From Acidimicrobiia bacterium (lineage in GTDB: Bacteria; Actinomycetota; Acidimicrobiia; Spongiisociales; Spongiisociaceae), in NCBI GenBank assembly GCA_009841075.1, contig VXMP01000049.1, positions 1 to 37,829 on the forward strand: 37,829 nt of DNA, read 5' to 3'. The notes under the pieces were generated by a model. It searched no databases. It was not told the origin of the DNA and saw only the letters and a list, made by a program, of their open reading frames with translations. The stretch's first letter is position 1, and each line of letters starts with the position of its first letter. The translations under genes were made by a program, and so were the position numbers. Shown piece after piece: positions 1 to 15,326 of the stretch.

Positions 1-3000
1 GCGCGTCGTTTGCCATGTGGAACATAGTCTGGAATCGAACCCCCCACGGATTCCCCCCCCTTTTCTCGTAGTCGCGGACAAACACACCCGCCCGCTCGTA
101 CATTTTTGCTGCGATTTCTTTGTCGCGTCGGGTGCGGAAGGTGGGGCAGGTGCGGGTGTTGGGGTTGAAGAGGGCAAAGTCGGCTTGGGTCAGGGGGTAT
201 CGCCGCTGCGGGTCGGCCATATCCTCCACCTGAAAGAGGAAGAAGGCGAACTCGGCACTGGGAACAGTGTGTTCAGGCCCGCTCAGGTTAAGTAGACAGA
301 ACTTGATCCTGATGTCTATTCCAGGAAATACCTTCGCGCGGTTCTCAAAGTCGTAGAGCGAGACCAGCGACCGGCTGTTTACCAAATCGGAGAAGAAGAA
401 CCGATAGGTGTAGTCGGTGGCGATCCCGCTCGGCACGATCATTCCGGCTCGTCCGGTGGGAGCGATCGAGTTACGCATCAGCTCTGCGAACACCGCGTAG
501 GTGTTGACATCACCTCTCCCGCATAACGGGTAAAACCCACTATTTCGTAATAGGGTGCTTACCCCTTCGGCTTGGCGCGATGCAGCCTGGAACTCTTGGT
601 AGAGAGTCGGATTGTACTCCTGTAAGGCGTCTATGAGCCTCTGTCTGGCCGCCTTGTTGGGTGCGTTGGCTATTTCCGGATCGCGGGCTGCAAACCATTC
701 TTTGGCCTGGAGCTTGACCCGTTCCCAGGGTGGGTTGCCGAGCACTGCGTCGAAGCCCTGGTACTGCTCCTGTACGTCCGGGAAGGCTAGGTGTAGATGG
801 AGGAACTGATACTCCTCGGCTAGTTCCTTGACCCTCTCTACCACTGCACCTTCGACCTCTTGGCCCTCGCCGATGGCGCGCACCGTGCTGTCGGTTATTA
901 CCGGCTCCCCTGGGCGTTTGGGGGCGACGAAGGCGGCGCACCAGGCGTCGGCGGCCAGCTTGGGTGTCTGGTAGGTATCGGAGTGTTGCAGGTCGGCGTA
1001 GATCTCCGACTTGGCGGCCACATCCCCGGCGCTTTCTCCACTTACCGGATCCAGGATCGCCATCTCCTCGGCCAGGGCTTGCACCGAGTCGTAGACCGAA
1101 TATCCCAGGTCGAGTATCCCCTGGTCGCGTTGCCTCAGTTCCATTCGGTTGGTTTTGCGCAGTTTGGTTACCCATTTTTTATCGTCTCCGGTGAGCGCCT
1201 TGAACGCCTCGTTGGGTAACCCCTCATCCAGCAGGTCGGGGGTGGTGCCCAAGAGGCTGTTGCCGCACACGATGTGATGGTCCAAGAACCCGAGCGGACG
1301 GCCGCCGTCGTTGGCCTCCATCCACAGGCTCACCTTGCACAGCTCCACCGCCATCGGGTTGATGTCGATCCCATACAGACAACGACCCACCACCTGGCGC
1401 AGCGCCTCTCGCAGCTCAGGCGGGGCGGGCTCGATTCCGCCGCTGCGCACCCGGGCCAGCCGTCCGGCGATGCGATGTCCCGCCGCCACCAGGAAATGGC
1501 CCGATCCGCAGGCCGGGTCCAGCACCCGCAAGTCGAGCAGGGCTTGCTCGGGATGGTCCGAGGCTTCGGCCGCATCGAGGATCGGGTCGAGCGAATCGTT
1601 CAAAATCTGATTGATCAGGGAGGTGGGGGTGTAGTAGCTGCCGGTGGTCTTGCGTTCGCTACCTCCGGCCGTCGCCAGATTGAACTGTCGGCCCTTCACG
1701 TTTAGCTTGGGGTGAAGCTCCAGCAACGACTCATAAACCGAACCCAGCTCGGCTGAGCCCAGGTTTCGATAGTCCACCAGGCGATGCATTTTGGCTTCGT
1801 CGTCCTTTACCAAGGCCAGGTTGCGTACCACCTTGAGGAGATGACGATTATCTATCGAAGAGTCAGCCAGGTCGGGGATCGCTTCGGGTGACCAGAGAAA
1901 GCTGCCGAGCGGCACCAGACCCAGCTCGGGAACCCCTTCCCCGCCCGCGTCCAGGGCGTTCATGGTGATCCTTAGGCCCTGCCACAGGTCGTCATGGGCG
2001 GTTCCCAGGCGGCGGTCGGCCAGGGTGCGCAGGCGTTGTACCGAGTAGAAATCCTGATAGCGGAGGCGGGCGGTGGGGTCGGCGTCAGGGGCGAGCAGCA
2101 GGTCTCGGCTCTCGGCGACCAGCAGAAACAGCAGTCGGTAGACCAGTCGCAGCAGCTGGCGCAGATAGTCGTCGCCGCTCAGGTCGCCTTCCCTCAGAGT
2201 GGAGCGCAGGGCGGCGTTGTGGCGATGGGCCAGAAACCCCTCTCCCAGGGATTCGATGGCTTTTTCCACCCCCTCCCGAAGGCGGTCCAGGGCGCGGGTG
2301 CCTTCCGAGGCGGCCTGGTTGGTCCACTGCTCCAGGAAGCATTTCTCGGGTGGGTCGCCCTCGAAGCGGCTGCGGTGGGCCACCAGCCATAGCTGCACGA
2401 AGTCGTTGTAGGAGCCGCCGTCGAAGATGGCCGCCAGGTCGAACTCGCAGTAGGCGGGCCGGGTGAGCGATACGTTGTCGCGCAGGATTCGTAGAACCAA
2501 ACCGTTGGAGACCATCCCCCAGAGGTGGTCGTCCGAGCGGTTGAGGAACTCCTGAACCAGGCCGTGGGGGGAGATCCTGGCCGCTCCTCGCACCCCGGGC
2601 GTGCGGCGATCCACCTTGACCCGGCAGCCGAGCAGGTGGATAGGGACGCTGGTGTCCTGCTGATGGCTGATCGGGTATTCCGTGCCGTCAATGGCCAAGC
2701 AGCGTGCCAGAGGAAGGTCGTGGAAACCAAGCTCTTCGAGAAGGGGCCGGAGCCAGCGGTCGCGGGTGAGGCTGGTGGCGGTCTTATCGGAGGGAGAAAG
2801 GTTGGCTTCGGCTCGGCGGAAAGACGACCAAACCCCTACCAGCCGGTTCCAAGATCGGGTGATGGCATCCCGAACCCGCTCTCCCGGCACAAGGTGGTAG
2901 TCGGTAGGATCGAGGCCCCCCAGGGTGACATCGCCCGAAGAACCGATCCGATCCAGCAGATCACGCGGTAGCAGACCCCCCATCGAGACGATGTTGGTGT

Positions 3001-3007
3001 CGCTCAC
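1..3007 (-). CDS. Eco57I-like N6-adenine DNA methyltransferase (DrmMI-like), 3' end missing
   Basis: The frame stays open for about 1000 codons from a GTG at 3007 and runs off the left edge, so the C-terminus is missing. The class I methylase SAM-binding motif DPACGSGHF lies near residue 495, followed by the GIDINPMAVELCKVSLW segment. The catalytic motif IV, NPPW, is near residue 757. This order and the roughly 490-residue N-terminal region fit large Eco57I-type or DISARM DrmMI methylases that modify adenine. The expected role is marking self DNA for the neighbouring helicases. It is the last gene seen of the minus-strand island and starts 121 bp after the ATPase stop. An upstream ATG is closed after four codons, so the GTG is the best start; the ribosome site is weak. 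A type IIL/IIG restriction-methylase fusion is possible, because the C-terminal specificity part is not visible. Confidence 0.9.
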   Translation of the reverse strand, partial: MSDTNIVSMGGLLPRDLLDRIGSSGDVTLGGLDPTDYHLVPGERVRDAITRSWNRLVGVWSSFRRAEANLSPSDKTATSLTRDRWLRPLLEELGFHDLPLARCLAIDGTEYPISHQQDTSVPIHLLGCRVKVDRRTPGVRGAARISPHGLVQEFLNRSDDHLWGMVSNGLVLRILRDNVSLTRPAYCEFDLAAIFDGGSYNDFVQLWLVAHRSRFEGDPPEKCFLEQWTNQAASEGTRALDRLREGVEKAIESLGEGFLAHRHNAALRSTLREGDLSGDDYLRQLLRLVYRLLFLLVAESRDLLLAPDADPTARLRYQDFYSVQRLRTLADRRLGTAHDDLWQGLRITMNALDAGGEGVPELGLVPLGSFLWSPEAIPDLADSSIDNRHLLKVVRNLALVKDDEAKMHRLVDYRNLGSAELGSVYESLLELHPKLNVKGRQFNLATAGGSERKTTGSYYTPTSLINQILNDSLDPILDAAEASDHPEQALLDLRVLDPACGSGHFLVAAGHRIAGRLARVRSGGIEPAPPELREALRQVVGRCLYGIDINPMAVELCKVSLWMEANDGGRPLGFLDHHIVCGNSLLGTTPDLLDEGLPNEAFKALTGDDKKWVTKLRKTNRMELRQRDQGILDLGYSVYDSVQALAEEMAILDPVSGESAGDVAAKSEIYADLQHSDTYQTPKLAADAWCAAFVAPKRPGEPVITDSTVRAIGEGQEVEGAVVERVKELAEEYQFLHLHLAFPDVQEQYQGFDAVLGNPPWERVKLQAKEWFAARDPEIANAPNKAARQRLIDALQEYNPTLYQEFQAASRQAEGVSTLLRNSGFYPLCGRGDVNTYAVFAELMRNSIAPTGRAGMIVPSGIATDYTYRFFFSDLVNSRSLVSLYDFENRAKVFPGIDIRIKFCLLNLSGPEHTVPSAEFAFFLFQVEDMADPQRRYPLTQADFALFNPNTRTCPTFRTRRDKEIAAKMYERAGVFVRDYEKRGGNPWGVRFQTMFHMANDA

Positions 3008-3128
3008 CCTTATTCAGCCCTCATCCAGGCCTGATCTTACAGAAACGCCGGTTCCGATTGAATCGGGGAGACCACTTCCCTTACAGAAGGCCAGATAAGC
3101 CCTGTTCAGAAGAGTTTGGGCAGGGTCC

Positions 3129-4391
3129 TCAGGATTGTGGGGGAGACCACAGGCAGTCGATGGGGCGCACATAGAGGCGGTCACCCATGGGAAGAGAGTG
3201 GTCGCCGGTGTGCAGGAGGAGGCCGGCCCGGAAGGTGCCCGGCGCAACTTTGTCCAGTTTTTCACGGAACCAACGCAGATGATCCAGATGCTGGGAGCGG
3301 GGTGAGGTGGTCGCCTTGATCTCGACCGCCACCAGATTTCCATTGGTTTCGCTAAGGATGAGGTCGATTTCCCGGCCCTTGTGGTCGCGATAGTGGGAAA
3401 GGTTAACCCTCCGTTCTGAGGCCGAAAGCTGTCGGGCTATCTCGCCGATGACGAAGGTCTTCAGGAGGGAGCCGGCGAGGGGCGAGGTGGGCGAACTCAG
3501 GGAGGCGGCATCCGTGCCCTGCATGGCGGCGGCCAGGCCGGAGTCGGTGAGATAGAACTTGGGCCGTCGGCCGACACCTCCGGCCAAACTACGGGACCAC
3601 GGGGGGAGCTGGTGAACCAGGAAGACGGTCAGTAGCCACCCCAGGTAGTAGGTGACGGTGGGACGGCTTATCCCTAGCTTTCGAGAGGCGTCCGATAGGT
3701 TGACCGGCCGTCCGGTGAGCGAGGCGGTCCATCTGAGCAAGGATTCCAGTTCGGAGTCTTTGCGGATGTCGGCCAGAGCCACGATGTCACGTTGGACGAC
3801 CGTATCCAAATATCCCTGAAACCAGCGGCTTCGGCGGCCCAGGGGAAGGTCGACTACTTCCGGGTAGCCTCCCCGGCATACCTTCTTGAGGTATTCGTCA
3901 CGATCAAGTCGGGGTGGAGATATCGGTTCGGGGTGACCCTTGAACCAGCTGTCGATCTGGGTGGGGGAGGTTCCGGTTATCTCGGCTTCCGAGAGTGGCC
4001 AAAGCCGGTAGATTTGGATTCGTCCGGCCAGGGATTCGCTGATCCCCGCCACGGTAAAAAAATTGGTAGAGCCGGTGAGGATGAACCGGCCCGGCGTCCT
4101 CTCCTCGTCCACCATTCGCTTCACAGCCAACACCAAACGGTCGCCGCCCAGCTGAACTTCGTCTATTACCAGGGGGTAGCTTTGATGGGAGAGGAAGGTG
4201 ATCGGGTCTTCCAGGATGCTCGCTCGCAGGACTTCGTCGTCCATTGACACGTAGGTGCCTCCCCGTTCCTGGGCGATCATCCTGGTCAGGGTGGTTTTGC
4301 CGCTTTGTCGGGCACCGTGGATCAGTATTACCCGAGCCCACTCTAAGCCGTCTTCAATCTGGTAACGAAGGTGGCGGTTGAGGGCTTCCAT
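3129..4391 (-). CDS. AAA ATPase with DUF4143 C-terminal region
   Basis: The 420-residue protein has a Walker A (GARQSGKT, residues 26-33) and Walker B (VIDEVQ, 75-80), the layout of the AAA_14 plus DUF4143 family. A winged-helix-like stretch lies in the middle (LSDASRKLGISRPTVTYYL). Near residues 340-357 the C-terminal part has EIDLIL and then VAVEIKA, which resembles the D...ExK core of PD-(D/E)XK nucleases often noted in this family. The molecular role of the family is poorly understood, and I do not assign a reaction. It sits between the SNF2 gene and the methylase with loose spacing on both sides, unlike the overlapping genes upstream. Its 5' leader is made entirely of a 23-bp tandem array that ends 19 bp before the ATG. 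AGGAG and GGAAGG motifs lie between array and start. It may be a later insertion in the defence operon, or its ATPase component. Confidence 0.9.
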   Translation of the reverse strand: MEALNRHLRYQIEDGLEWARVILIHGARQSGKTTLTRMIAQERGGTYVSMDDEVLRASILEDPITFLSHQSYPLVIDEVQLGGDRLVLAVKRMVDEERTPGRFILTGSTNFFTVAGISESLAGRIQIYRLWPLSEAEITGTSPTQIDSWFKGHPEPISPPRLDRDEYLKKVCRGGYPEVVDLPLGRRSRWFQGYLDTVVQRDIVALADIRKDSELESLLRWTASLTGRPVNLSDASRKLGISRPTVTYYLGWLLTVFLVHQLPPWSRSLAGGVGRRPKFYLTDSGLAAAMQGTDAASLSSPTSPLAGSLLKTFVIGEIARQLSASERRVNLSHYRDHKGREIDLILSETNGNLVAVEIKATTSPRSQHLDHLRWFREKLDKVAPGTFRAGLLLHTGDHSLPMGDRLYVRPIDCLWSPPQS

Positions 4392-4410
4392 TGCCTTCCG
4401 ATCCTACTCC

Positions 4411-4778
4411 TAATTTACAAACGCCGCCGCCGCTGGGTTACAGATGCGACGGGGGATAGTTTACAGATCCTTCCCTGGATAGTTTACAAATGCTACTCGA
4501 AGTAGTTTACAAATTCTACCTTGGGTAATTTGCAAACGCGCCTCTGGATAGTTCGCATACCTTACCCTGAGTAGTTTACAGATGCTACTGGGGATAATTT
4601 GCAGATCCTTCCTCGAGTAGTTTACAGATGCGACCGAGGGTAGTTTACAAATTCTACCTTGGATAGTTTACAAATTCACCTCTGGCTAGTTTGCAAATCT
4701 GACTGAAGATAGTTCGCAAATGCCACCGAAGGTAATTTACAAACCTTACCCTGGATAGTTAGCAAACTCCCCCCGCTC
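4411..4778. repeat. Tandem array of 16 x 23-bp degenerate repeats
   Basis: Sixteen consecutive units of exactly 23 bp, with no insertion or deletion, fill 368 of the 411 bp between the SNF2 gene and the ATPase start. Written on the plus strand, the conserved first half of the unit is TAGTTTACAAAT; the remaining 11 bp vary more. Unit positions 1 (T), 5 (T), 8 (C), 9 (A), 11 (A) and 17 (C) are identical in all 16 units. Positions 3, 7, 10, 12 and 18 vary almost only by transitions. The core TTTRCAAA is a dyad and becomes a perfect palindrome (TTTGCAAA) in several units. Because 23 is not a multiple of three, the array is not coding. It could be an operator or iteron array controlling the ATPase gene, or a transcribed structured leader. 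Transposon-end or satellite origin is also possible. Confidence 0.95.
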
Positions 4779-4802
4779 GGGTCCGGTCAGGACTGGTTCG
4801 GA

Positions 4803-7667
4803 TCAGTCGACCGCAGGCAAGAAAATGTAGACGCCCAGCAGGTCGGTGGGATGTTGGGGGGTGACCTTCACCTGACCGCCTCCAGGGGCCGAGCCTCGTA
4901 TCACCTGCCCTCCCCGGCGGCGGTCGGCGGCGCGCACCCGGGCGTGGGTCTCGGCTAGGGCTTCGGCCCGACGGTCGGCCTCGGAATGGATATGGGGCCG
5001 CCAGGTTTCCTCGGCGGACAATACCTCCTCCAGGAAATATCGGGCGGCATCAGGGGAGACATTGCCGGAGGGGGTGGCGGACAGGAGGGCTTCGGCTTCT
5101 GCCTCGGGGAGCCAGACCGGAGAATCGGGCGCGCCGGCGAAGGCGAGCAGAAAGGCTTCCTCGGCCAGCATGGGATGCTGCCTCTGGCGGCTGCCGGTTT
5201 CGAGGGTCATCCGAGAGCGGCACAAAAACAGCGTGGTACGGATGGCTACCTGTCCGGTTCGCATCACCCCGCAGCGGGCGGCGTGGCTCTGGGCGGCGAG
5301 AACCGGATCCAGGGCGGTGTCGAGCACATAACCGGCCAGCCCTCCCACCGCCGGGCTGGTGCGGGACCACAAAACCGTGTTGCCGGATACCGGCGGCTCG
5401 AAGCGGGCGTACACAGAGTCGCTGGTCACAGCCAGGGCGTCCTTGACCTCGGGGGAGATCTCTCTCAGGTCGAACACGGCCTCCACCTCCCTGCCGGAGT
5501 CGTCCTGCACGGACCGGATGAAGGCCCCTTCGCTGCTTAGCACCTCTTTCATGAACCGTTCCGTGTCGGCACCCGAACCGATCGCCTCCCGCATCTTCTC
5601 CAGTTCATCGGCCACGGCGTCGGGGTCGATGGTGTGCTGAGCGAAGAGCGACCTCCGTTTGACCTCGGCCTCTCGGGCCCGCTCCCATTCCAGGTCGAGA
5701 GCCGAGGAGTACGGGCTCATCACCTCTTTCATCCAGTCGAAGCGGCGCTGGGCCGGCATGTTCTCGCCAAGCAGGACGTTTTCCGCCAGCGCCTCGATCA
5801 CCTCGTTGGTGGCACCAGGCACCGGAATCGACACCCCCAGCGCCTTACGGATCGCCGTGTGCTTGTGCAGAAGCACCTTGAGGACGGTCTCGTCGATGTG
5901 GTTGTCCTCGCCCCAGTAGGTGACCACCCGCACCTCCTCAGCAGGTTGGCCGAAGCGGTCCACCCGACCCTCCCGCTGTTCGAGTCGGGTGGGATTCCAG
6001 GGCAGGTCGTAGTGGACAACCGCCGAGCAGTAGTTCTGCAGGTTGATGCCCTCGCTCAGACAGTCGGTGGAGACCAGCACCGGAAAGCTGTGGTCGCGCA
6101 GCTCGGACACCCGGGTTTCGCGTTCGTCGGGGGGTAGCTGTCCGGTAACCACCAGCACCTCGGCACGGGAGGAGCGGAGGCGATCCCGCAGCTCTCGGCC
6201 CACGTATTCGGCGGTTTCGATGAAGCGGCAGAACACCACCGGACGGAAACCGTCTTGGAGCAAATTCCTGACCATCTTGGTCAGCTGAAGGAGCTTGAAG
6301 TCGGATTCGCCGGTCAGGTCGTCGGCTCGGCGGGCGAACTCGCGGAGGCGACGGGGGATGGTGTCGGTCTCGTTGGAACCCGGTATCACGTCTACAACTT
6401 CCTCGCCCTCGTCCAAGTCGAGCAGGGTGCGCCGACCCAGCTCATCGATCTCTTCGGCGGTTTCGGCCTCGGCGGTCTGGGCTCGGGTGCGCATGGTGGC
6501 GGCTGCGGCGGCCGGACTTGAGGCCAGCGCCCGTAGCAGGCTCAGGGCGGACCACCATCTGAACCGCTTCTCCCGTTGGTCGGAGGAGGGTTGTCGCACC
6601 CATTGGCGGGCGTAGGTCAGAACGTCCTCGAACAGGGTCTGATAGTCGGGAGAGAGCAGGTAGGTGGTTTCGCTGTCGTCCCGCTTCGGGAAGGAGGTGT
6701 CGGTCCGCAGATAGTGTTGGATGTCGGACCGACGGCGTTGCACCAAATGGCGGGCCAGACGGTCGCGGTGAGGGCGGTTTTCCTCACCGGCCAGGTCGTC
6801 GGGAAGCTCTTTAAAGTCGGCGTCGAGCAGGCCGAGCAGCGACCGAAACGATTCGTCCTTGCCCGAATGGGGGGTGGCGGTGACCAGGACCAGGTGGCGG
6901 TCGGGGCGTTGGGCCAGTTTGGAGACCAGCAAATGGCGCTGGTGGCGGGCACCGCGGGCTCGTTCGTTGGCGGCGCAGGTGTGGGCTTCGTCCACGATAA
7001 CCAGCTCAGGGCAGGATTTGATGAAGTCGTCCCGGCGGCGAGGGGATTTGATGAAGTCCAAGGACACCACGAAATGGTCGTAGACGTCGAATAGGGACTG
7101 GCCCACCGTCAGTTGGCGTTCCAGTCGGGCAGCGGTGGAAGAGAGCACCAGCTCGGCGTCGATGTGGAACTTGGATAGGAGCTCCTGCTGCCACTGTCCG
7201 GCGAGATGGGGTGGGCAGAGGACGGCCAGCTTGCGGGCTTCGCCGCATTCCAGCAGCTCGCGGGCGATAAGGGTGGCTTCGATGGTCTTGCCCACCCCGA
7301 CGTCGTCGGCGATGAGGAGGCGGACCGGGTCGAGCCGGAGCGCCATGAGCAGCGGCACCAGCTGATAGGGACGGGGCTGCACGGCGATTCGTCCCGCCGA
7401 ACGGAACGGCCCGGCACCGGCCCGGAAGCCGAGACGAAGGGCGTCGCGCAGCAACCGGGCGGAGGAGGCGTCGCCCAGGTGAATGGACGGGTCGGGTGGG
7501 TCGAAACCGGCCGGAGCTACTGCTTCCAAGGAGGTGAGGATCCCGGTTATCTCTTCGTCGGAGCCTCCCAGCGGACGAACCATCACCAGGTCATCGCCGG
7601 ATTCAGGGAGGATCACCCAATCCCGGCCACGGGCTCGAACCAGGGATCCCGGGGAGAAAGAGCTCAT
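4803..7667 (-). CDS. SNF2-type helicase/translocase (DrmD-like)
   Basis: This 954-residue superfamily 2 ATPase has Walker A DDVGVGKT (residues 121-128), DEAH (226-229), TATPHSG near 262 and motif VI (QREGRVDRFGQ) near 566, the arrangement of SNF2/HepA-like helicase-related proteins. The N-terminal 90 residues look like a small beta-rich domain, and the C-terminal third is alpha-rich and charged. Proteins of this build are DrmD in class 1 DISARM and also occur in other defence islands. They translocate along DNA using ATP and do not necessarily unwind it. The ATG follows the stop of the small upstream gene by six bases, with GAGG just before it, so the two are probably translated together. The array and ATPase gene follow downstream. 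The assignment as SNF2-family is firm; the DrmD match is by architecture only. Confidence 0.93.
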   Translation of the reverse strand: MSSFSPGSLVRARGRDWVILPESGDDLVMVRPLGGSDEEITGILTSLEAVAPAGFDPPDPSIHLGDASSARLLRDALRLGFRAGAGPFRSAGRIAVQPRPYQLVPLLMALRLDPVRLLIADDVGVGKTIEATLIARELLECGEARKLAVLCPPHLAGQWQQELLSKFHIDAELVLSSTAARLERQLTVGQSLFDVYDHFVVSLDFIKSPRRRDDFIKSCPELVIVDEAHTCAANERARGARHQRHLLVSKLAQRPDRHLVLVTATPHSGKDESFRSLLGLLDADFKELPDDLAGEENRPHRDRLARHLVQRRRSDIQHYLRTDTSFPKRDDSETTYLLSPDYQTLFEDVLTYARQWVRQPSSDQREKRFRWWSALSLLRALASSPAAAAATMRTRAQTAEAETAEEIDELGRRTLLDLDEGEEVVDVIPGSNETDTIPRRLREFARRADDLTGESDFKLLQLTKMVRNLLQDGFRPVVFCRFIETAEYVGRELRDRLRSSRAEVLVVTGQLPPDERETRVSELRDHSFPVLVSTDCLSEGINLQNYCSAVVHYDLPWNPTRLEQREGRVDRFGQPAEEVRVVTYWGEDNHIDETVLKVLLHKHTAIRKALGVSIPVPGATNEVIEALAENVLLGENMPAQRRFDWMKEVMSPYSSALDLEWERAREAEVKRRSLFAQHTIDPDAVADELEKMREAIGSGADTERFMKEVLSSEGAFIRSVQDDSGREVEAVFDLREISPEVKDALAVTSDSVYARFEPPVSGNTVLWSRTSPAVGGLAGYVLDTALDPVLAAQSHAARCGVMRTGQVAIRTTLFLCRSRMTLETGSRQRQHPMLAEEAFLLAFAGAPDSPVWLPEAEAEALLSATPSGNVSPDAARYFLEEVLSAEETWRPHIHSEADRRAEALAETHARVRAADRRRGGQVIRGSAPGGGQVKVTPQHPTDLLGVYIFLPAVD

Positions 7668-7673
7668 CTGCCT

Positions 7674-7862
7674 CTATTTACCGGCTTTAGAATTACGGAA
7701 CGCCTCGACCGCCTCCGCAATAGCATCCTGGCCCTCGGAGGCTCTGCCAGGGATGCGAGGTCGCGAGCCTGCCTGCGCTATCGAGGACGCCTCGGCTTCC
7801 AGACGTGCCGCTTCCTTGGCCAGCTCCTGCTGTCGCTCCCTTTCCCGTCTCTTGCGAAACAC
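7674..7862 (-). CDS. Small charged helical protein in helicase operon, unknown function
   Basis: A short open frame of 62 codons starts with GTG at 7862, eleven bases after the stop of the large helicase gene, and ends six bases before the SNF2 start. A TTG at 7895, overlapping the upstream gene, would give 73 residues. The N-terminal half is a run of Arg, Glu, Gln and Ala (RKRRERERQQELAKEAARLE) that should form a long charged helix or coiled coil. The C-terminal part is Ala/Glu-rich. No known domain is recognised. Its position inside an otherwise gap-free operon argues that it is a real gene and perhaps an adaptor between the two helicases, but that role is inference. It could also be a non-functional spacer that keeps translation coupled. 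Confidence 0.6.
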   Translation of the reverse strand: MFRKRRERERQQELAKEAARLEAEASSIAQAGSRPRIPGRASEGQDAIAEAVEAFRNSKAGK

Positions 7863-7872
7863 AGCCCTGAGC

Positions 7873-10800
7873 CTACTCGCCCCGGCCTGGCCCAAACACC
7901 GGCGGGTGGTGGCGGATGATTTGGTCCCAGTCGTCCCGTAGGCCGAAGCGGATCACCTGGTAGCCGAGGTTCATCATCCGGCGGTTGGCCTCTTGGTCAC
8001 GTTTGGCCCGTTCGGGATAATCGTGATGGGGGCCGTCAACGTAGATCACGGCGCAGGCATCGTCATAGACAAAGTCGGGCCGGGCCTTGGCCGCCTTGAA
8101 GTAGACCTGAGCCCGATCGGGCATCCGGTAGCCACCCTTCTTAAGCCGGTCCAGGAACTCCTTCTCCAGACCCGATTCGGGTGGCGGCCCCTCCGGTGAA
8201 CGGATGACCTCGGCGTCACGGAGTTGGGCGAGCCGGTCGGCAAGGGTGTCACGATCCAGCAGCTGATGGTCCATCTGGTTCCGGTAGGTGAGCAGGCACT
8301 GGTAGCAGGCCGCTTCGCACCGATCTCCATCCTGAGAATCGCTCATATCTTCGAGCGTGTCGGGATCGAAATGGCAGCGCCGCAAGGCTTCTCGGGCGAC
8401 CCGTCTCCAGATGGGTGCGTCAAGGATTAGGCGGCGCAGCACTCCGGCACCACCCTCCGCCGATTCGTAGAACAGGAGGAGTCGGCGATCATCTCGACTA
8501 GGCAACGGCTCTGCGGCCAGCTCACCGGGTTCCAGCTGGAATACCGCCTCGAAAGAGGCTTTCAGGGCGGCTTCAAGGGAGGCCATGGTTGCCAGGTCCG
8601 GCGGCATAGACGGTTTCACCAGCAGGGCGTTGCGGGTGTCGGTGACGTAGGGAACCACCCGTTGGGTTTGAGCCGAGAGGGGATCGTCCTGGCTCGCAGA
8701 GTCCTTGTCCTGCCTACCCCAGACCCCGCTTTCGACGTCAAGGACGAAACCGTGTTGTTGGGGGTTCTTGCGCCGCCGCCATCCCTGGTTGACCCGCCAG
8801 ACGGTGGCGGTTTTGCCGTAGGCCAGCTCCAAGAGAGGTTTCCCGATTTCCTCCCCACTGAGGCCTGACCCTTCGAGAGACGCTGCCGTCACGGTGGCCT
8901 GGTCAATCTGGTAGCGGCCCGAATGCTCGGCGAACTGCACCCCCGAAATCAGCTCGTATCCGATCCGGAACCGCTCCTCCTCGTCGGAGGTGATGCGGTC
9001 GCGCCGCCTGGTCGAAACGTTTCTCATCCGGATCAGGTTGGTCCAGGTCAGGCCCAGCTCGGAATGGCAGTAATGGCATACGTCCGGCCCGGGCGGGGTG
9101 TTGATCTCGTGCATGTAGCCGCATTCGGTGCAGCGCTTGACCGTCTGGGTGATCAGTCTTCCCTCGTCTCCGGACGCAGAGGTTCCCGAAGCATTATCCG
9201 TCGGGTCGAGGATCACCCGGTCGATCAGGTAGCGAGCCCCCTCGTGATACAGGTAGGAGCGAGGGCCGAACTCGCTGATCGCCAGGAAACGAGGGCGTTG
9301 CAAGAACTCAACTCCCTCACGGCTACGGTTTCGTCTACCAGGGATGAAAGCCGAGAGCGGCAGACGCGGGAAGGAGTAGCCGGGCAGGAATCCTTCGGCG
9401 GCCAAATAGCGGTAGGTGTAGAAATCGGACTGGCCACGCTGGTCTGATTGGGCACGCAACAGGTCGAGTTGCTTTTCCGCTTCGGACCGCAGTCGGCGGG
9501 CTTTGCGGCGGTCCTCCTCGCTGCGGTTGGCGGACATGGCGATCTTGCCCTGCTCCCGCGCCTGGGCCAGAGCCGCCGAGTAGAGCGACAGCCATCTTTT
9601 CAGGGCGTCCTCGAAACGGCGGTGAATCTTATTCAAGGTGTCGGTCAACCAGGTGTCCGACCACCAAGGTGCATCGGCTAGTTCCGAGCCCATGCTTTCG
9701 AGAACCTTTTGGGCGCGAACCTTGGCTCTGGCCTTCAGATTGGGATCGTTCAGACTATCTCGGATCTGGTCGGTTATCTCCGGTTTGGTCTCCCCGTCGG
9801 TGAGGTCGAGGATGTCGCCCATCGACCTGCCCAGATCCAGCCCGCTCTCCGCCAACCAGACGGAATGGACATGGGCTCTAACCAGGTCTTCGTTGGTCAG
9901 GTCCACTCGGGGTGCCTCTACCTGACCGGAGATCATCTCCTCCTGATGGCCGAAAAAGTGCTGGTCGTGTGGGCTGCCAACCGAACAGTAGGTGAAAACC
10001 AGGGCAGGTTGTCCGCTACGTCCGGCTCGACCGGAACGCTGCGCGTAGTTGGCGGGAGTAGGGGGCACGTTCCGCATATTTACCACGTTCAGCTCTGAGA
10101 TATCGACCCCCAGCTCCATGGTCGGAGAGCAGAAGAGCACCGGCAGACGGGCCTCACGAAACTGTTGCTCGCGTTCGATGCGCTGCTCATAGGACACCTG
10201 GGCGGTGTGTTCCCGGGCTTCGATGCCGGATAGCTCCGAGCCGGAGGTCCGATAGCGGTCGACGAAATAAGGGTTGGTCGGCATCTCCTCGGGAGCGCCG
10301 GGCATCCGAATTTGATCAACATAGGGCTTGGTGCCGTCGCCGGACTTCCAGATCAGGGCGGCGGCCGGAATCTGCCACTGGGAGCCGTTTTCTCCGTCAT
10401 CGTCCACCGCCACCAGCAGTCCGTATCGGCGCAGGCGCTCGGCCATCTGGCGGATAATCTCGGTGGTGGAATCGACGGTTAGTGGCTCAGGCGAGAAGTT
10501 GGATAAACCGTCTTGTCTGCGCAGGAACTGGCCGAAGGCGCTTCGACCGGTCATGTATCTCCAGTCTCGGCCGTCGTATCTTTGTCTGGTACGGGTCAGA
10601 AAACGGGTGGAGGGCTCCAGTTGGCGAGAATCATCGGCCAACGACCAGGGACCGATCAGCCGCTGGTCGGCCCGCTGCACCAGCCTTTCCTGGTGGCGGC
10701 GATCCAAAACGTCCACCTTGATTCCCAGTTCACGGCGGATCCAGTCCAGCATCACGGTCAAAATCCGATGACGATGCTCGGGTCCGGCGTCTACCAAGCT

Positions 10801-13038
10801 CGGATGGCAGTCCTTCCAGATCGACTCGTCTTGGGAAAGCTCTTGGAGACACTGATATTCGATGGTGAGGAGGCCGGTCTGTTCCAGGTTGGGTTGGGTG
10901 AGGCGCCAGCCCCGTTTCAGGTCACGGTAGAGGCGATAGGCGAGAACCTCCCGCAGAACCTGGTCGGTATCAAGGGCAGCTCCTCCCCGTAGATCAGGGT
11001 CGAGGGCGTATTGGTCGGCGGGAAGGCCCAGCTTGTCGAACACCTGCTGGGAGAGATCGTCATGCCTAAGTCCGTCTGGTCGGCCCGCCGCTGCCTGCCA
11101 TAGGGCGGAGCGAAGTTGGGTTACCTGGACGAAATCGTTGAAATGGCCTGCCTGGAGGGAGGCGTCTTGGCGGTTGTCGGTGAAAGACAGGAGCTTGCGG
11201 GCCTGGGAGGGGAGGCGGCCATTCTGGCGCAGGAAATGGACCACGGCCAGCGACATGATGGTGGTGGCGGTGGAACGACCCTCCGAGCCGAGGGTGGCGA
11301 GCCGGCTGAAATCACTGCCGAGCCTACTCGGGTAGGACACCCCGCAGGCCAGGCAGAAACGGAAGGGGGTGAGCGTCCACCAGCCGGGCACGCCTCCTTC
11401 TGTAATGGAATCGGGGGAGAGTAGCCGACCATCAGGCATAACCTCCACCCGTTGCGGCACTTCGCCTCGTCGGTTAGGCCGCAGCCGACCGTTGGGGTCG
11501 AGCCAGGTAGGAGGCAGCCGGTCGAGAATGCGGTCGGAATCATCAGGCCAGGGGTGGTCATCGCTGAGATAGAGGAAACCGGACCGGTTCTCTTCTTCAA
11601 ACCGGTCCCTGAGGTCCCGGGGGGTCAGGATTTCTTCTTCGGAATTGTCCGGGGCCTGGCCTCGACGGACCACGTAGTAGTCCTGGCCACAGGCTCGGCA
11701 GAAAGACAACGGTAGGAGCACCCGGGTGCGATCGCCAGGGACGAAGCGCCGCCCTTGCAGGGTCAGGGCACGCTTGCCAGGGCTTTCCGGTGAGGCGTAA
11801 ACGGTGTCGCCCCGGCTGATGAACTGGTGCAGGCGGAAGGCGAATACCGGCATAGCGGTGGTCGGGTTTCGGATTTCGTGTCCGGCCAGCAGGTAGGAGC
11901 GAAGGGCGTTTTCGCAGCTTTCCTGGTCGATGTCGGTTAGCGCGGAAAGGCGAGCCGCTGCTCCCTCGTCTCCCTCCAGAGCCCGGGGAATAGCCCGTAC
12001 CAGACGCCCCTCTTCCTGGCCGATCCCGAATTCGGTTTCGATCCAACCGGACAGGGGGTCGGCGGCAAAGGCTTCAAAATCCTTCGGCGGTCGGTTCCGC
12101 CATATTGCCCGACCCAGCTCCGCCCGGTGGGTCGGATCGGAAAGGTCGGGTTCCGGGGTGAGCCGCCGCAAGGTTTCGCCGATGACATCTTCGGGGTGAA
12201 CCTTGGCACCGAACAGACGGGTGCCCACCTTGGCCAGGCGGGTAAGGCGTTCTTGGTGCCCGCCTTCGGTGGAAAGGGTGGCGGAAGTCCCAACGCAGCG
12301 GATGGCCGCCGAACCGGAGGCCTCCCTAACCCGCCGCACCAGGAGGGCAACGTCGGCACCCTGTCGTCCTCGATAGCTGTGTAGCTCGTCAAGCACCAGA
12401 AAGCGGAGATCGCCCATCGCCTTAACCAGGGCCTTATCGCGATAGCGGGTGAGGATGAGCTCCATCATCACGTAGTTGGTGAGGAGGATGTCGGGCGGGT
12501 CATTGAGGATCAGGTCACGGGCTTCCTGGTCTTCCTGACCTGAATATCTGTTGAAAGTGACCGGCGGGTTACTCCCCGGCAGGAACTTGGCGAGCTCCTC
12601 CATCTGGCTGTTGGCCAGGGCGTTCATCGGGTAGATGACGACTGCTTTAACCCCGGTGCCCGAGCCGGTGCGCAGGACGTGATCGACTATAGGGATTATG
12701 TAGGCGAGGCTCTTGCCGGAACCGGTTCCGGTGGTGAGCACGTAGTTGCGGTCGGCTTGGGCGGCTCGGATGGCCTCTTCCTGATGGCGATAGGGCTTGA
12801 TGGTGCCGAAAATATCCTGGCAATGGGGGTGGAGTAGTCCATCGTTGACCATTGATTCGACAGAGGTGCCGGTTTCAAAGGCCGGGTTGAGCCCGATCCT
12901 GGGGGGAGGCCAGAGCAATCCTTGATCCAGGGCGTTTTTCACCTCGGTGCGGATTCGCTTGTCACGAAGGCGCATGAAGCTGGTGGCGTACCTCCGGTAG
13001 TCGTCCAGAAGTTGGTCGCGGAGCTCAAAGACGTTCAT
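7873..13038 (-). CDS. Giant DEAD-type helicase with DUF1998-like region and C-terminal Vsr/DUF559-like nuclease domain (DrmA/DrmB-like)
   Basis: The 1721-residue protein starts with an SF2 helicase core: Walker A GTGSGKS (104-110), DELH (217-220), a GTSATLS segment, and motif VI (QRSGRAGRSGQ) near residue 1000. Several zinc-binding Cys pairs follow (CRAC near 446, CLAC near 563, CTEC/CHYC near 1300). Near residue 1578 the CYQCLLTYRNQ segment resembles the Cys cluster of DUF1998 proteins such as MrfA and DISARM DrmB. The last 80 residues (VYFKAAKARPDFVYDD, then VIYVDGPHHDY and VIRFGLRDDW) look like a Vsr/DUF559-type endonuclease fold. It therefore looks like DrmA and DrmB functions plus a nuclease in one chain. 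It overlaps the UvrD-like gene by four bases (ATGA). It is expected to unwind or translocate on DNA and possibly cut it. Confidence 0.93.
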   Translation of the reverse strand: MNVFELRDQLLDDYRRYATSFMRLRDKRIRTEVKNALDQGLLWPPPRIGLNPAFETGTSVESMVNDGLLHPHCQDIFGTIKPYRHQEEAIRAAQADRNYVLTTGTGSGKSLAYIIPIVDHVLRTGSGTGVKAVVIYPMNALANSQMEELAKFLPGSNPPVTFNRYSGQEDQEARDLILNDPPDILLTNYVMMELILTRYRDKALVKAMGDLRFLVLDELHSYRGRQGADVALLVRRVREASGSAAIRCVGTSATLSTEGGHQERLTRLAKVGTRLFGAKVHPEDVIGETLRRLTPEPDLSDPTHRAELGRAIWRNRPPKDFEAFAADPLSGWIETEFGIGQEEGRLVRAIPRALEGDEGAAARLSALTDIDQESCENALRSYLLAGHEIRNPTTAMPVFAFRLHQFISRGDTVYASPESPGKRALTLQGRRFVPGDRTRVLLPLSFCRACGQDYYVVRRGQAPDNSEEEILTPRDLRDRFEEENRSGFLYLSDDHPWPDDSDRILDRLPPTWLDPNGRLRPNRRGEVPQRVEVMPDGRLLSPDSITEGGVPGWWTLTPFRFCLACGVSYPSRLGSDFSRLATLGSEGRSTATTIMSLAVVHFLRQNGRLPSQARKLLSFTDNRQDASLQAGHFNDFVQVTQLRSALWQAAAGRPDGLRHDDLSQQVFDKLGLPADQYALDPDLRGGAALDTDQVLREVLAYRLYRDLKRGWRLTQPNLEQTGLLTIEYQCLQELSQDESIWKDCHPSLVDAGPEHRHRILTVMLDWIRRELGIKVDVLDRRHQERLVQRADQRLIGPWSLADDSRQLEPSTRFLTRTRQRYDGRDWRYMTGRSAFGQFLRRQDGLSNFSPEPLTVDSTTEIIRQMAERLRRYGLLVAVDDDGENGSQWQIPAAALIWKSGDGTKPYVDQIRMPGAPEEMPTNPYFVDRYRTSGSELSGIEAREHTAQVSYEQRIEREQQFREARLPVLFCSPTMELGVDISELNVVNMRNVPPTPANYAQRSGRAGRSGQPALVFTYCSVGSPHDQHFFGHQEEMISGQVEAPRVDLTNEDLVRAHVHSVWLAESGLDLGRSMGDILDLTDGETKPEITDQIRDSLNDPNLKARAKVRAQKVLESMGSELADAPWWSDTWLTDTLNKIHRRFEDALKRWLSLYSAALAQAREQGKIAMSANRSEEDRRKARRLRSEAEKQLDLLRAQSDQRGQSDFYTYRYLAAEGFLPGYSFPRLPLSAFIPGRRNRSREGVEFLQRPRFLAISEFGPRSYLYHEGARYLIDRVILDPTDNASGTSASGDEGRLITQTVKRCTECGYMHEINTPPGPDVCHYCHSELGLTWTNLIRMRNVSTRRRDRITSDEEERFRIGYELISGVQFAEHSGRYQIDQATVTAASLEGSGLSGEEIGKPLLELAYGKTATVWRVNQGWRRRKNPQQHGFVLDVESGVWGRQDKDSASQDDPLSAQTQRVVPYVTDTRNALLVKPSMPPDLATMASLEAALKASFEAVFQLEPGELAAEPLPSRDDRRLLLFYESAEGGAGVLRRLILDAPIWRRVAREALRRCHFDPDTLEDMSDSQDGDRCEAACYQCLLTYRNQMDHQLLDRDTLADRLAQLRDAEVIRSPEGPPPESGLEKEFLDRLKKGGYRMPDRAQVYFKAAKARPDFVYDDACAVIYVDGPHHDYPERAKRDQEANRRMMNLGYQVIRFGLRDDWDQIIRHHPPVFGPGRGE

Positions 13039-15326
13039 CGCATGGTCGCGTTAGGTTGGGTGGCTATCGACTCCTGATGATTGAAATGGCCGGTTACCCA
13101 GACCAAGGCTTGGCTGGGTTGGTGGTTGTAGAGGATTACCAACACGTCTCGGGCTCGGGTCATGGCCACGAACAGCTGAGAAATTTGTAGAAGGTGTTCC
13201 TCGTTGGCCTCTTCGACGGTCTTGTGTTTGCTAGGAGGCATAGGGAATTGGTTTTTAGTTAGTCCGGGCAGGAATACCGCCTTGAACTCCAGGCCTTTGC
13301 CACGGTGGAAGGTCCCAACCTTGATGAGAGAGTTACCCCTTCCGTCATAATCGTCCAACGACTGCACCCCTAACCGGGCGGCTTTGATGCGGGCGATGAT
13401 CTTGTTAACCAGCTTCTTATTTGGTGCAAGAACCCCAACGTCACCTGGCCCGATGTTGCTGTCTTGTTTGGTTAGGTCTTCAATCCGCCGCACCAACTCG
13501 TCCAACTGGGCCTCGGTGTTCCCGGCGTCCACCATCAGTGGGCTCGGCCCTCGCCGAACCGGGTCGGCTTTGGCTTCGGCCCGTAAGTAATCTTCGGCCA
13601 AGCCTTGGACAGGGGTGTCCCCGGCCATCGCCATGGCCGCTTCGATTATCTCGCCAGTGTTGCGGTAGTTGATGTTTAGGACAGTGGTGCGTCCCCGAAC
13701 CTCCAGGCCGGCTTGGCGAAGGGTGAAGCCACCGGGATAGATGCGCTGAGCACCGTCGCCGAGGATAAGCAGCCCGTCGGGTCGGTCCTGCTCTGGATGC
13801 GGGGCGTTTACGAGAGCCCGCAGGAACAGGAGGCCGGCCATGGTGATGTCTTGGGCTTCGTCAACAATGATTGACGAGTAGAGCGGCTGTTTAAGCCGGC
13901 GAGCATGGCGAAGGGCGCGCAAGCGGATATCGGGGAAGTCCATCACACCTCGTTCGGACATTTCCTTGTCCCAGGCCTCCCGTAACCGCCACATCTCGGT
14001 CCTAATATTCTGATCCATGGGGACTCGGCGACCGGTACGGGCGATCTGAAGGTATTCGTCTAGCACCTCAATGGCCCGGCCCTTGATGACTGCAGTTATC
14101 TCTTCTCGTATGTAACGCTTGGTAAAACCGCTGCGTTTGAGGCGTGAACCCGGAACTACCACCTGTTGGTAAGCAACCGAGAAGGCTTCCTCTACCTTCT
14201 TTTGGTTGGGACTGGGCCAATCTTGGGCCTCTCGACAGATGCGGTGGGCCAGGCTATCGACATGGTTGAACTCGACTTCGCCTGATAAAGCACTAGGAAG
14301 GCGTAGATACAGCGATTTGAAAACAGGGGGAAGGTTTTTGACGAAAGTGGTGAAAAGGACCGGTCGGGTTTTATCTTCTTCAGTACGGATAAGGCGGTTT
14401 TGGGTTTCTTGTCGTTGAGTGCGATTGCGTTGGGCCAGCCAGGCCGCCCGATGGAGTCCCACAACGGTCTTGCCGGTGCCGGCCGAGCCTCGTACCAGGG
14501 CCGGCCCCTGATAGCTCCGCCGTACGGCGGTCCGCTGGTCGGGGTGGAGAAAGATCATCCAGTCCTCGATCGGCCGACCCATTATTTCTTCAAGGAATGC
14601 GGGTTCGGTGCGGGTGAACCAGGCGGGCATGTTTTCGTCTTGGAGTTGGCGCTCGAAATCCAAGTCTTCCGCGGTGGCCGGCGGTGGGGTCGGGTTTACT
14701 TCTAGTTCTCTGACCCGAGCAGCTTCGGCGGCGGCTTTCTCTCCGTCGGGATGACCGTAGGCGATCAGGTTATAGCAGCGCTCAAAGTGTGTCTCACCCA
14801 ATAAGTCTTCCATTGCCAGGAGTTCGTCATCATGGTTGAGGCGGCGCAGGTGGGTCACCAAGTGGTCAGGAAATCCGAACTCACGGAGCTCTTTATCGGA
14901 CCAAGCCATTAAAAGCTGCCCTGCTCCGTCCGGGCGGCGGCCGAGATGGTAAGGACGATCCTCTCCTGATTCAGGGTTCTGCTCAATGACGGTGAGGGTG
15001 TGCACTTGAGGATCAAATCGGATGCTGATCCCCTTTACACGGTCGTAGACCTTGTGGTTGCCGAACAGAAGTAGGACGATGGTTCGGTTGAACAATTGCC
15101 AAACCACCCGGCGGTCGCTTCTCCGTCCTCCCACATCGGAGGCATAGATCTTGTGGCCGTTTTTTGCCTCGCCCACGCCGTGGGTATTGAGCTTGTTGTT
15201 CTGGAAAGGTCTAAGGCGAAGTTCGGACATTGTGTCTAGAAGGGCGGCCTTATTTTTGAGGGCGTCCTTGCGCAAGGCGTTAACGCTGTCCCAGAAAGAT
15301 TGCGTTTCCACCACGTGGTACGACAT
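13035..15326 (-). CDS. UvrD/Rep-type SF1 helicase with RelE-like N-terminal domain
   Basis: The 763-residue protein carries the SF1 helicase motifs: GSAGTGKT near residue 284, VDEAQDI near 490, NINYRNTGEI near 557, GTFHRGKGLEF near 675 and AMTRARDVL near 723. The first 105 residues do not belong to the helicase. The pattern of a helical start, then KLNTHGVGEAKNGHKIYASD, RVVWQLFNRTIVLLLF and a final HKVYDRV, resembles the RelE/ParE toxin fold. Fusions of this kind are known among UvrD-like proteins of defence islands. Whether the domain is an active ribonuclease is unclear. It is the first gene of the island operon, with GGAGG eight bases before the ATG and a candidate promoter at 15402-15429. 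DNA unwinding is the family activity; a role in phage restriction is inferred from the neighbours. Confidence 0.93.
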   Translation of the reverse strand: MSYHVVETQSFWDSVNALRKDALKNKAALLDTMSELRLRPFQNNKLNTHGVGEAKNGHKIYASDVGGRRSDRRVVWQLFNRTIVLLLFGNHKVYDRVKGISIRFDPQVHTLTVIEQNPESGEDRPYHLGRRPDGAGQLLMAWSDKELREFGFPDHLVTHLRRLNHDDELLAMEDLLGETHFERCYNLIAYGHPDGEKAAAEAARVRELEVNPTPPPATAEDLDFERQLQDENMPAWFTRTEPAFLEEIMGRPIEDWMIFLHPDQRTAVRRSYQGPALVRGSAGTGKTVVGLHRAAWLAQRNRTQRQETQNRLIRTEEDKTRPVLFTTFVKNLPPVFKSLYLRLPSALSGEVEFNHVDSLAHRICREAQDWPSPNQKKVEEAFSVAYQQVVVPGSRLKRSGFTKRYIREEITAVIKGRAIEVLDEYLQIARTGRRVPMDQNIRTEMWRLREAWDKEMSERGVMDFPDIRLRALRHARRLKQPLYSSIIVDEAQDITMAGLLFLRALVNAPHPEQDRPDGLLILGDGAQRIYPGGFTLRQAGLEVRGRTTVLNINYRNTGEIIEAAMAMAGDTPVQGLAEDYLRAEAKADPVRRGPSPLMVDAGNTEAQLDELVRRIEDLTKQDSNIGPGDVGVLAPNKKLVNKIIARIKAARLGVQSLDDYDGRGNSLIKVGTFHRGKGLEFKAVFLPGLTKNQFPMPPSKHKTVEEANEEHLLQISQLFVAMTRARDVLVILYNHQPSQALVWVTGHFNHQESIATQPNATMR

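Follow-up and report, generated by a model that had tools for sequence, protein, structure and literature searches.

Identification of the locus

At the left end of the window (the whole stretch of 37,829 nucleotides analysed here, contig C2 of a 2.3-Mb Acidimicrobiia genome in 90 contigs), five genes encode three helicases, an ATPase and an adenine methylase, and the question they raise is which defence system they form and how a RelE-UvrD gene came to stand first among them. According to the ORF listing of the window, all five are real open reading frames, co-oriented on the minus strand. The first-pass annotation had described a DISARM-related defence operon with an unusual gene order, which was borne out by the ORFs and by the Pfam, PADLOC and NCBIfam domains. 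The best explanation overall, to which we assign a probability of about 0.78, is a type I ARMADA operon with a recruited RelE-UvrD effector and a DUF4143 gene as a bystander. The gene order is D-C-A-(DUF4143)-B, with the following features.

13035..15326, minus strand: armD-like gene, N-terminal RelE-fold domain and UvrD helicase, 763 aa
15021..15326, minus strand: RelE/YoeB/YafQ-like domain, ArmD residues 1-102 (structural match of the predicted model)
7873..13038, minus strand: armC, YprA/DruE-type SF2 helicase with MZB/DUF1998 region, 1721 aa
7876..8175, minus strand: Vsr-like PD-(D/E)xK nuclease domain, ArmC residues 1622-1721 (fold of the predicted model)
4803..7667, minus strand: armA, SNF2/RapA (BrxHII/DrmD/DpdE-related) helicase, 954 aa
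3129..4391, minus strand: AAA_14-DUF4143 ATPase (PADLOC PDC-S01), 420 aa, between armA and armB
1..3007, minus strand: armB, PglX-like adenine methylase, N-terminal ~1002 codons, running off the window
1..55: contig-end overlap, an exact match to the C89 terminus (locus L004), at which the C-terminal specificity region of armB starts

The reading frames of armD, armC, armA and the DUF4143 gene were open. The armD and armC genes meet in an ATGA overlap, which suggests that they are translationally coupled, and the remaining gaps measure 205 bases (C to A), 411 bases (A to DUF4143) and 121 bases (DUF4143 to the methylase). Scans of the locus returned 3 promoter-like sites (2.3 expected) and 9 terminator-like sites (10.9 expected), both about chance; no tRNA was found in the window, and the phage records searched with ArmC gave no match. 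No empty site that would mark a conserved single insertion site was found in the same-genus genomes, because the genes flanking the operon on the left and on the right lie there on separate contigs. To the left of the operon, a 3386-aa protein (L004 5025-15185) resembled a modular polyketide synthase by eye, and a phosphopantetheinyl transferase gene was located nearby.

Domains and predicted folds of the encoded proteins

The domain calls obtained with the Pfam, PADLOC and NCBIfam profiles agreed with one another; the PADLOC figures for the cluster proteins refer to the matches listed, which for the methylase were the best 25 of 50 families. In the PADLOC run, the leading profiles were DruE for ArmC, DpdE for ArmA and PDC-S01 for the DUF4143 protein. 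ArmC carries Pfam DEAD/Helicase_C and MZB domains, the latter corresponding to the DUF1998 region, and matched DruE at 1.3e-99 as against 3.1e-17 for DrmA. ArmA, a SNF2/Helicase_C protein, matched DpdE at 9e-245, DrmD at 1.8e-87 and, more weakly than DpdE, HmaA at 3.6e-62; its NCBIfam DrmD score of 340.8 bits was under the cut-off of 610. ArmB contains Eco57I/N6_Mtase domains and matched DrmMI at 1.7e-67 over part of the profile (best 25 of 50 families). The AAA/DUF4143 protein reported at first pass was confirmed by Pfam AAA_14 and DUF4143 and by PDC-S01 (3.9e-139), its sole family among the matches listed. The 763-aa protein, read earlier as a RelE-UvrD fusion, proved to be one, the UvrD helicase being called by Pfam, with weak PADLOC GajB matches (1e-22), and the RelE fold by a predicted model and structure search.

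The predicted model of ArmD residues 1-241 was of low confidence (pLDDT 64), and with Foldseek alone its best RelE match had an E value of 5.7e-3. Alignment of residues 1-102 with RelE-family toxins by VIA-align gave a top Z of 10.1 with an rmsd of 2.6 over 96 residues, and nearly all of the best 50 structural matches of the model were RelE, YoeB, YafQ, ParE or HigB. Residues R72 and Y94 were invariant in all seven aligned ArmDs, and residues like these are catalytic in RelE toxins. Judged from its modelled fold, the RelE domain of ArmD is a putative RNase. A model of the C-terminal 165 residues of ArmC (pLDDT 82) matched the Vsr endonuclease 1cw0, with a Foldseek E value of 3.5e-4 and a VIA Z of 9.3 (rmsd 2.3 over 91 residues), and the motifs E, PDF and VDGxxH of this Vsr-like domain were kept in most of 20 aligned rows. 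Residue mapping further showed that the eight E. coli residues mutated in PMC12458937 have the same letter in the window at 8 of 8 positions, namely K127 and D226 in ArmA, K109 and D217 in ArmC, K286 and D489 in ArmD, and N758 (NPPW) and G501 (GSG) in ArmB.

Probable assignment to ARMADA type I

ARMADA was presented in a 2025 preprint by Bell et al. (PMC12458937), the accessible part of which describes ArmA as a BrxHII/RapA-like helicase, ArmB as a PglX-like methylase, ArmC as a YprA helicase with a terminal Vsr nuclease and ArmD, for type II (A-B-C-D) only, as a RelE-fused GajB-like helicase. In that part of the preprint, type I comprises three genes and type II four, including RelE-UvrD; the E. 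coli type II defence is non-abortive and requires all four genes, and deletion of armD abolishes it. In the accessible text of the literature, RelE-UvrD in ARMADA was found described only in PMC12458937, where it is tied to type II, and no phage assay was found for any type I ARMADA.

The proteins of the window were compared with those of the E. coli ATCC 8739 type II island and of the Nocardioides JS614 plasmid C-A-B locus. Identities to Nocardioides were 45% for ArmC, 50% for ArmA and 46% for ArmB, and local identities to E. coli type II were 25%, 28% and 22%, respectively, while ArmD was 30% identical to E. coli ArmD in the helicase part only. In an ArmC tree of 105 rows (104 ArmC-like proteins and E. 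coli DruE; one FastTree run with SH-like support, four rows shorter than 1200 aa, L052, G236, L143 and L037, having been dropped), the window's ArmC fell inside a 96-row type I clade with a support of 100. In this clade C-A-B loci predominated and A-B-C loci were few, and the nearest named rows to the window came from Acidimicrobiales and Acidimicrobiaceae MAGs. The type II ArmCs formed a clade of seven rows, all A-B-C-D, apart from that of the window, and one long-branched row (G013C154) lay outside both.

The locus thus shares with type I the ArmC clade, the C-A-B order (with one extra gene between A and B), the single Vsr-like C-terminal nuclease and the 45-50% identity to Nocardioides JS614, and differs from it in the RelE-UvrD gene placed first, the AAA-DUF4143 gene between armA and armB, and an armB that is truncated in the assembly. 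With type II (E. coli NCTC 12900 / ATCC 8739) it has in common the A, B, C and D proteins and the eight tested residues; the A-B-C-D order is absent, however, the type II ArmC is longer (2113 aa versus 1721 aa) and in another clade, local identity is 22-30%, and the type II ArmD belongs to a different D lineage. These results make it likely that the locus is an ARMADA type I with an added RelE-UvrD gene, the label type I being anchored in gene order and in the E. coli type II sequences, not in the preprint's own type I sequence.

Two other known systems resemble single components. DruE of Druantia type III was the closest PADLOC model of ArmC among the matches listed, but the window is without DruH, and DruE has PLD nuclease domains, not Vsr, according to the accessible part of PMC12458937. 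The weak GajB matches recall Gabija, from which the locus differs in that no GajA was seen and that the UvrD helicase has a RelE N-terminal domain and other partners.

The truncated methylase gene

Extension of the sequence to the left of position 1, as suggested at first pass, located the methylase end on contig C89, and the PLD nuclease gene drmC, likewise not seen at first pass, was not found among the flanking proteins scanned. When armB was joined to C89 across the 55-base overlap, a stop appeared after 1030 codons, just beyond the start of the C-terminal specificity region that continues in intact relatives (1331 aa in Nocardioides). Behind this stop lay a mosaic of diverged C-terminal-region pieces in other frames (L004 17990-18691, C89 41989-42690), which matched residues 1-41, 1-157, 114-150, 115-230 and 262-344 of the L061 ArmB C-terminus and included a perfect (CT)17 tract. 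No other locus had the armB C-terminal start motif twice. Switching via specificity cassettes was considered and found unsupported, as a search of the genome with the L061 C-terminus returned pieces at C89:41354-42689 only. After exclusion of nine cut or short rows from 77, armB was one ORF in 60 of the 68 type I loci judged and not in the eight others, the window included; in G256 it was split by a DDE transposase gene (L137 2822-4165). This armB copy may be broken, and because in the assembly it ends before the C-terminal specificity region, it may not methylate; the state observed may hold for every cell, be a variant within the population or stem from the assembly.

A decaying operon that no longer protects its host would be compatible with the ARMADA I identity and concerns whether this copy works. 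The early stop with the mosaic and (CT)17 behind it, the eight loci in which armB is not one ORF, the split armB of G256 and the ATPase gene inserted in the operon speak for decay. We nevertheless consider it somewhat unlikely, as the other four frames are open with their motifs intact and the join falls at a 55-base contig-end overlap, so that armB may have an intact end in an unseen population variant.

The inserted ATPase gene itself is probably incidental, a bystander by its sequence distribution, because the AAA-DUF4143 (PDC-S01) family had 23 matches in the same genome, some with internal stops, but was not matched in the other type I loci whose gene order was mapped; an operon-specific role was rejected on these grounds. 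Other genes were found in the A-B gap of other type I loci, encoding AAA_21 (L072), Fic (L081), REase-ARP (L082) and Phd-VapC (L051).

Distribution of RelE-UvrD genes in type I loci

A type I-like ArmC was detected in 12 of 296 same-class genomes, and together with G013, which came from a search of 59 relatives, these made up 13 genomes. The RelE-UvrD gene (D) was directly upstream of C in seven of them (the window, G013, G005, G282, G140, G164 and G070, the last with only the end of D on its contig), and G140 had a complete D-C-A-B operon without DUF4143. D was not found in the other six same-class type I genomes (G011, G042, G256, G063, G236 and G237) and is therefore not essential to type I. 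In G042, the gene upstream of armC encoded, instead of RelE-UvrD, an MkoC-like SF1 helicase of 1076 aa that ends in an MTES_1575/DUF559 nuclease domain (L031 5498-8728).

A D profile run on 80 named loci found D in seven, a further match of 70.8 bits in L101 being left out of the count: L064, L075 and L132 had it between C and A (C-D-A-B) and L109 and L119 after B, in L125 it lay 5 kb off on the opposite strand, and in L135 a 298-aa piece of it preceded C. D may be undercounted here, because the sequence around C extends for 2.5 kb or more on its upstream side and 9 kb or more on its downstream side in only 50 of the 80 loci. A type I operon with RelE-UvrD, placed first and common to relatives, is new with respect to the accessible text of PMC12458937. 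The idea of a distinct subtype, raised at first pass, is partly right: the operon belongs to type I, and its RelE-UvrD, of the type II style, occupies a new position that relatives share.

Origins of the RelE-UvrD gene

In the D trees (L165 left out, L213 not included), the window-type Ds formed a clade of their own, separate from the type II Ds. Those of the mycobacterial C-A-B-D loci were nested with type II actinobacterial Ds, and the Ds of L064, L075 and L132 grouped with Thermus genes, one of which (L166) adjoins brxL. A search of 396 phylum genomes with the window's D gave matches at 1e-40 or better in 16 genomes, its own included, and ten of the other neighbourhoods were examined. One was a type I C-D-A-B locus with a window-type D (L204, from G462), and two were type II ARMADA (L210, L212). 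In L206, genes for DrmB, DrmC, an AAA_5 protein and an ORF without assignment were followed by RelE-UvrD, and DrmD and DrmMI lay just upstream (L214), so that class 1 DISARM genes run in one direction down to RelE-UvrD (L214 3085-9833 and L206 1287-11382), and a long ORF lies between the two, where drmA would be expected. In L205, RelE-UvrD and the DrmD and DrmMI genes were divergently oriented, and past these came DrmA, DrmB and a second DrmMI (L215). L207, L208 and L209 fell in the same UvrD clade, and the helicase of L207 (10398-12506) carries an N-terminal NERD nuclease domain instead of RelE, which suggests that the N-terminal domain may be swappable.

These neighbourhoods also bear on a rival view, in which RelE-UvrD defends on its own, as a Gabija-like gene or as a toxin-helicase acting alone, and shares with ARMADA no more than a defence island. 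Such independence is suggested by L211, where D is present with no ARMADA gene in the 20 kb fetched, by the divergent D beside DISARM genes in L205, by the opposite-strand D of L125 at a distance of 5 kb, and by the lack of D in six of the 13 type I loci from the same class. It is nevertheless improbable in view of the ATGA overlap of armD with armC, the place of D immediately before C in seven genomes and within the operon, flanked by C and A, in L064, L075, L132 and L204, and the loss of E. coli type II defence upon armD deletion given in the accessible part of PMC12458937.

That the locus is a class 1 DISARM in rearranged form, or an Hma system, as proposed at first pass, is highly improbable: the locus has a homologous SNF2 helicase and methylase, a distant DUF1998-type YprA helicase, DrmD and DrmMI among the PADLOC matches listed and a RelE-UvrD of the kind that has DISARM genes next to it in L205 and L206, but ArmC scored far better as DruE than as DrmA and is placed elsewhere by its tree, the DrmD score fell below the NCBIfam cut-off when genuine DISARM neighbours of RelE-UvrD reached 2e-261 or 0 for DrmD and 0 for DrmMI in PADLOC, neither a separate DrmB nor the usual PLD nuclease DrmC was found among the flanking proteins scanned, HmaA was well behind DpdE for the same protein, and the DUF4143 protein matched PDC-S01 only among the matches listed. 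The 1721-residue chain in which DrmA and DrmB functions had been thought to be joined is indeed a single chain; it is not a DrmA-DrmB fusion, these being separate genes in DISARM, because in ARMADA and Druantia the YprA helicase is normally a single polypeptide, as stated in the accessible part of PMC12458937.

Returning to type I ARMADA with a recruited effector, we read RelE-UvrD as a repeatedly recruited module because of its varied positions, its D lineages and its DISARM and BREX neighbours, and from sequence it is probably a portable effector. A stronger statement we hold at even odds: rather than a type II gene, RelE-UvrD would be an RNA-cutting effector that is portable across helicase-methylase systems and has a swappable N-terminal domain; its hosts would be ARMADA I (at least three operon positions), ARMADA II, class 1 DISARM and possibly BREX. 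The occurrence of RelE-UvrD at several type I positions and in at least three D lineages breaks the gene-content rule that separates type I from type II, suggests an exchangeable effector role for the RelE-helicase, and raises the question of whether one such gene alters phage range via RNA cleavage. Databases that label such helicases DpdE, DrmD, DruE or GajB will misname these operons.

Proposed mechanism

Following the characterised ARMADA II, we propose that ArmB would methylate host DNA and thereby mark self. ArmA (RapA/SNF2) and ArmC (YprA), as their families suggest, would act as ATP-driven translocases engaging unmodified or replicating phage DNA, which the Vsr-like domain of ArmC, going by its fold, would cut. 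The UvrD motor of ArmD may travel along the exposed single strand and deliver the RelE domain to phage transcripts or ribosomes, where RNA would be cut alongside DNA; this UvrD-guided, RNA-cutting step by RelE is the tentative part of the model. ARMADA I, ARMADA II and class 1 DISARM would each have taken up RelE-UvrD as a portable module, in several separate recruitments of which the window shows one. If this is true, DNA-targeting systems turn into dual DNA/RNA-targeting ones through the gain of one gene.

The same genome contains a second defence-like cluster (G000 C68:22053-31911, L029 8053-17911), which encodes a type IIG-like methylase, an HKD+SNF2-type helicase and a HEC-05-like protein.
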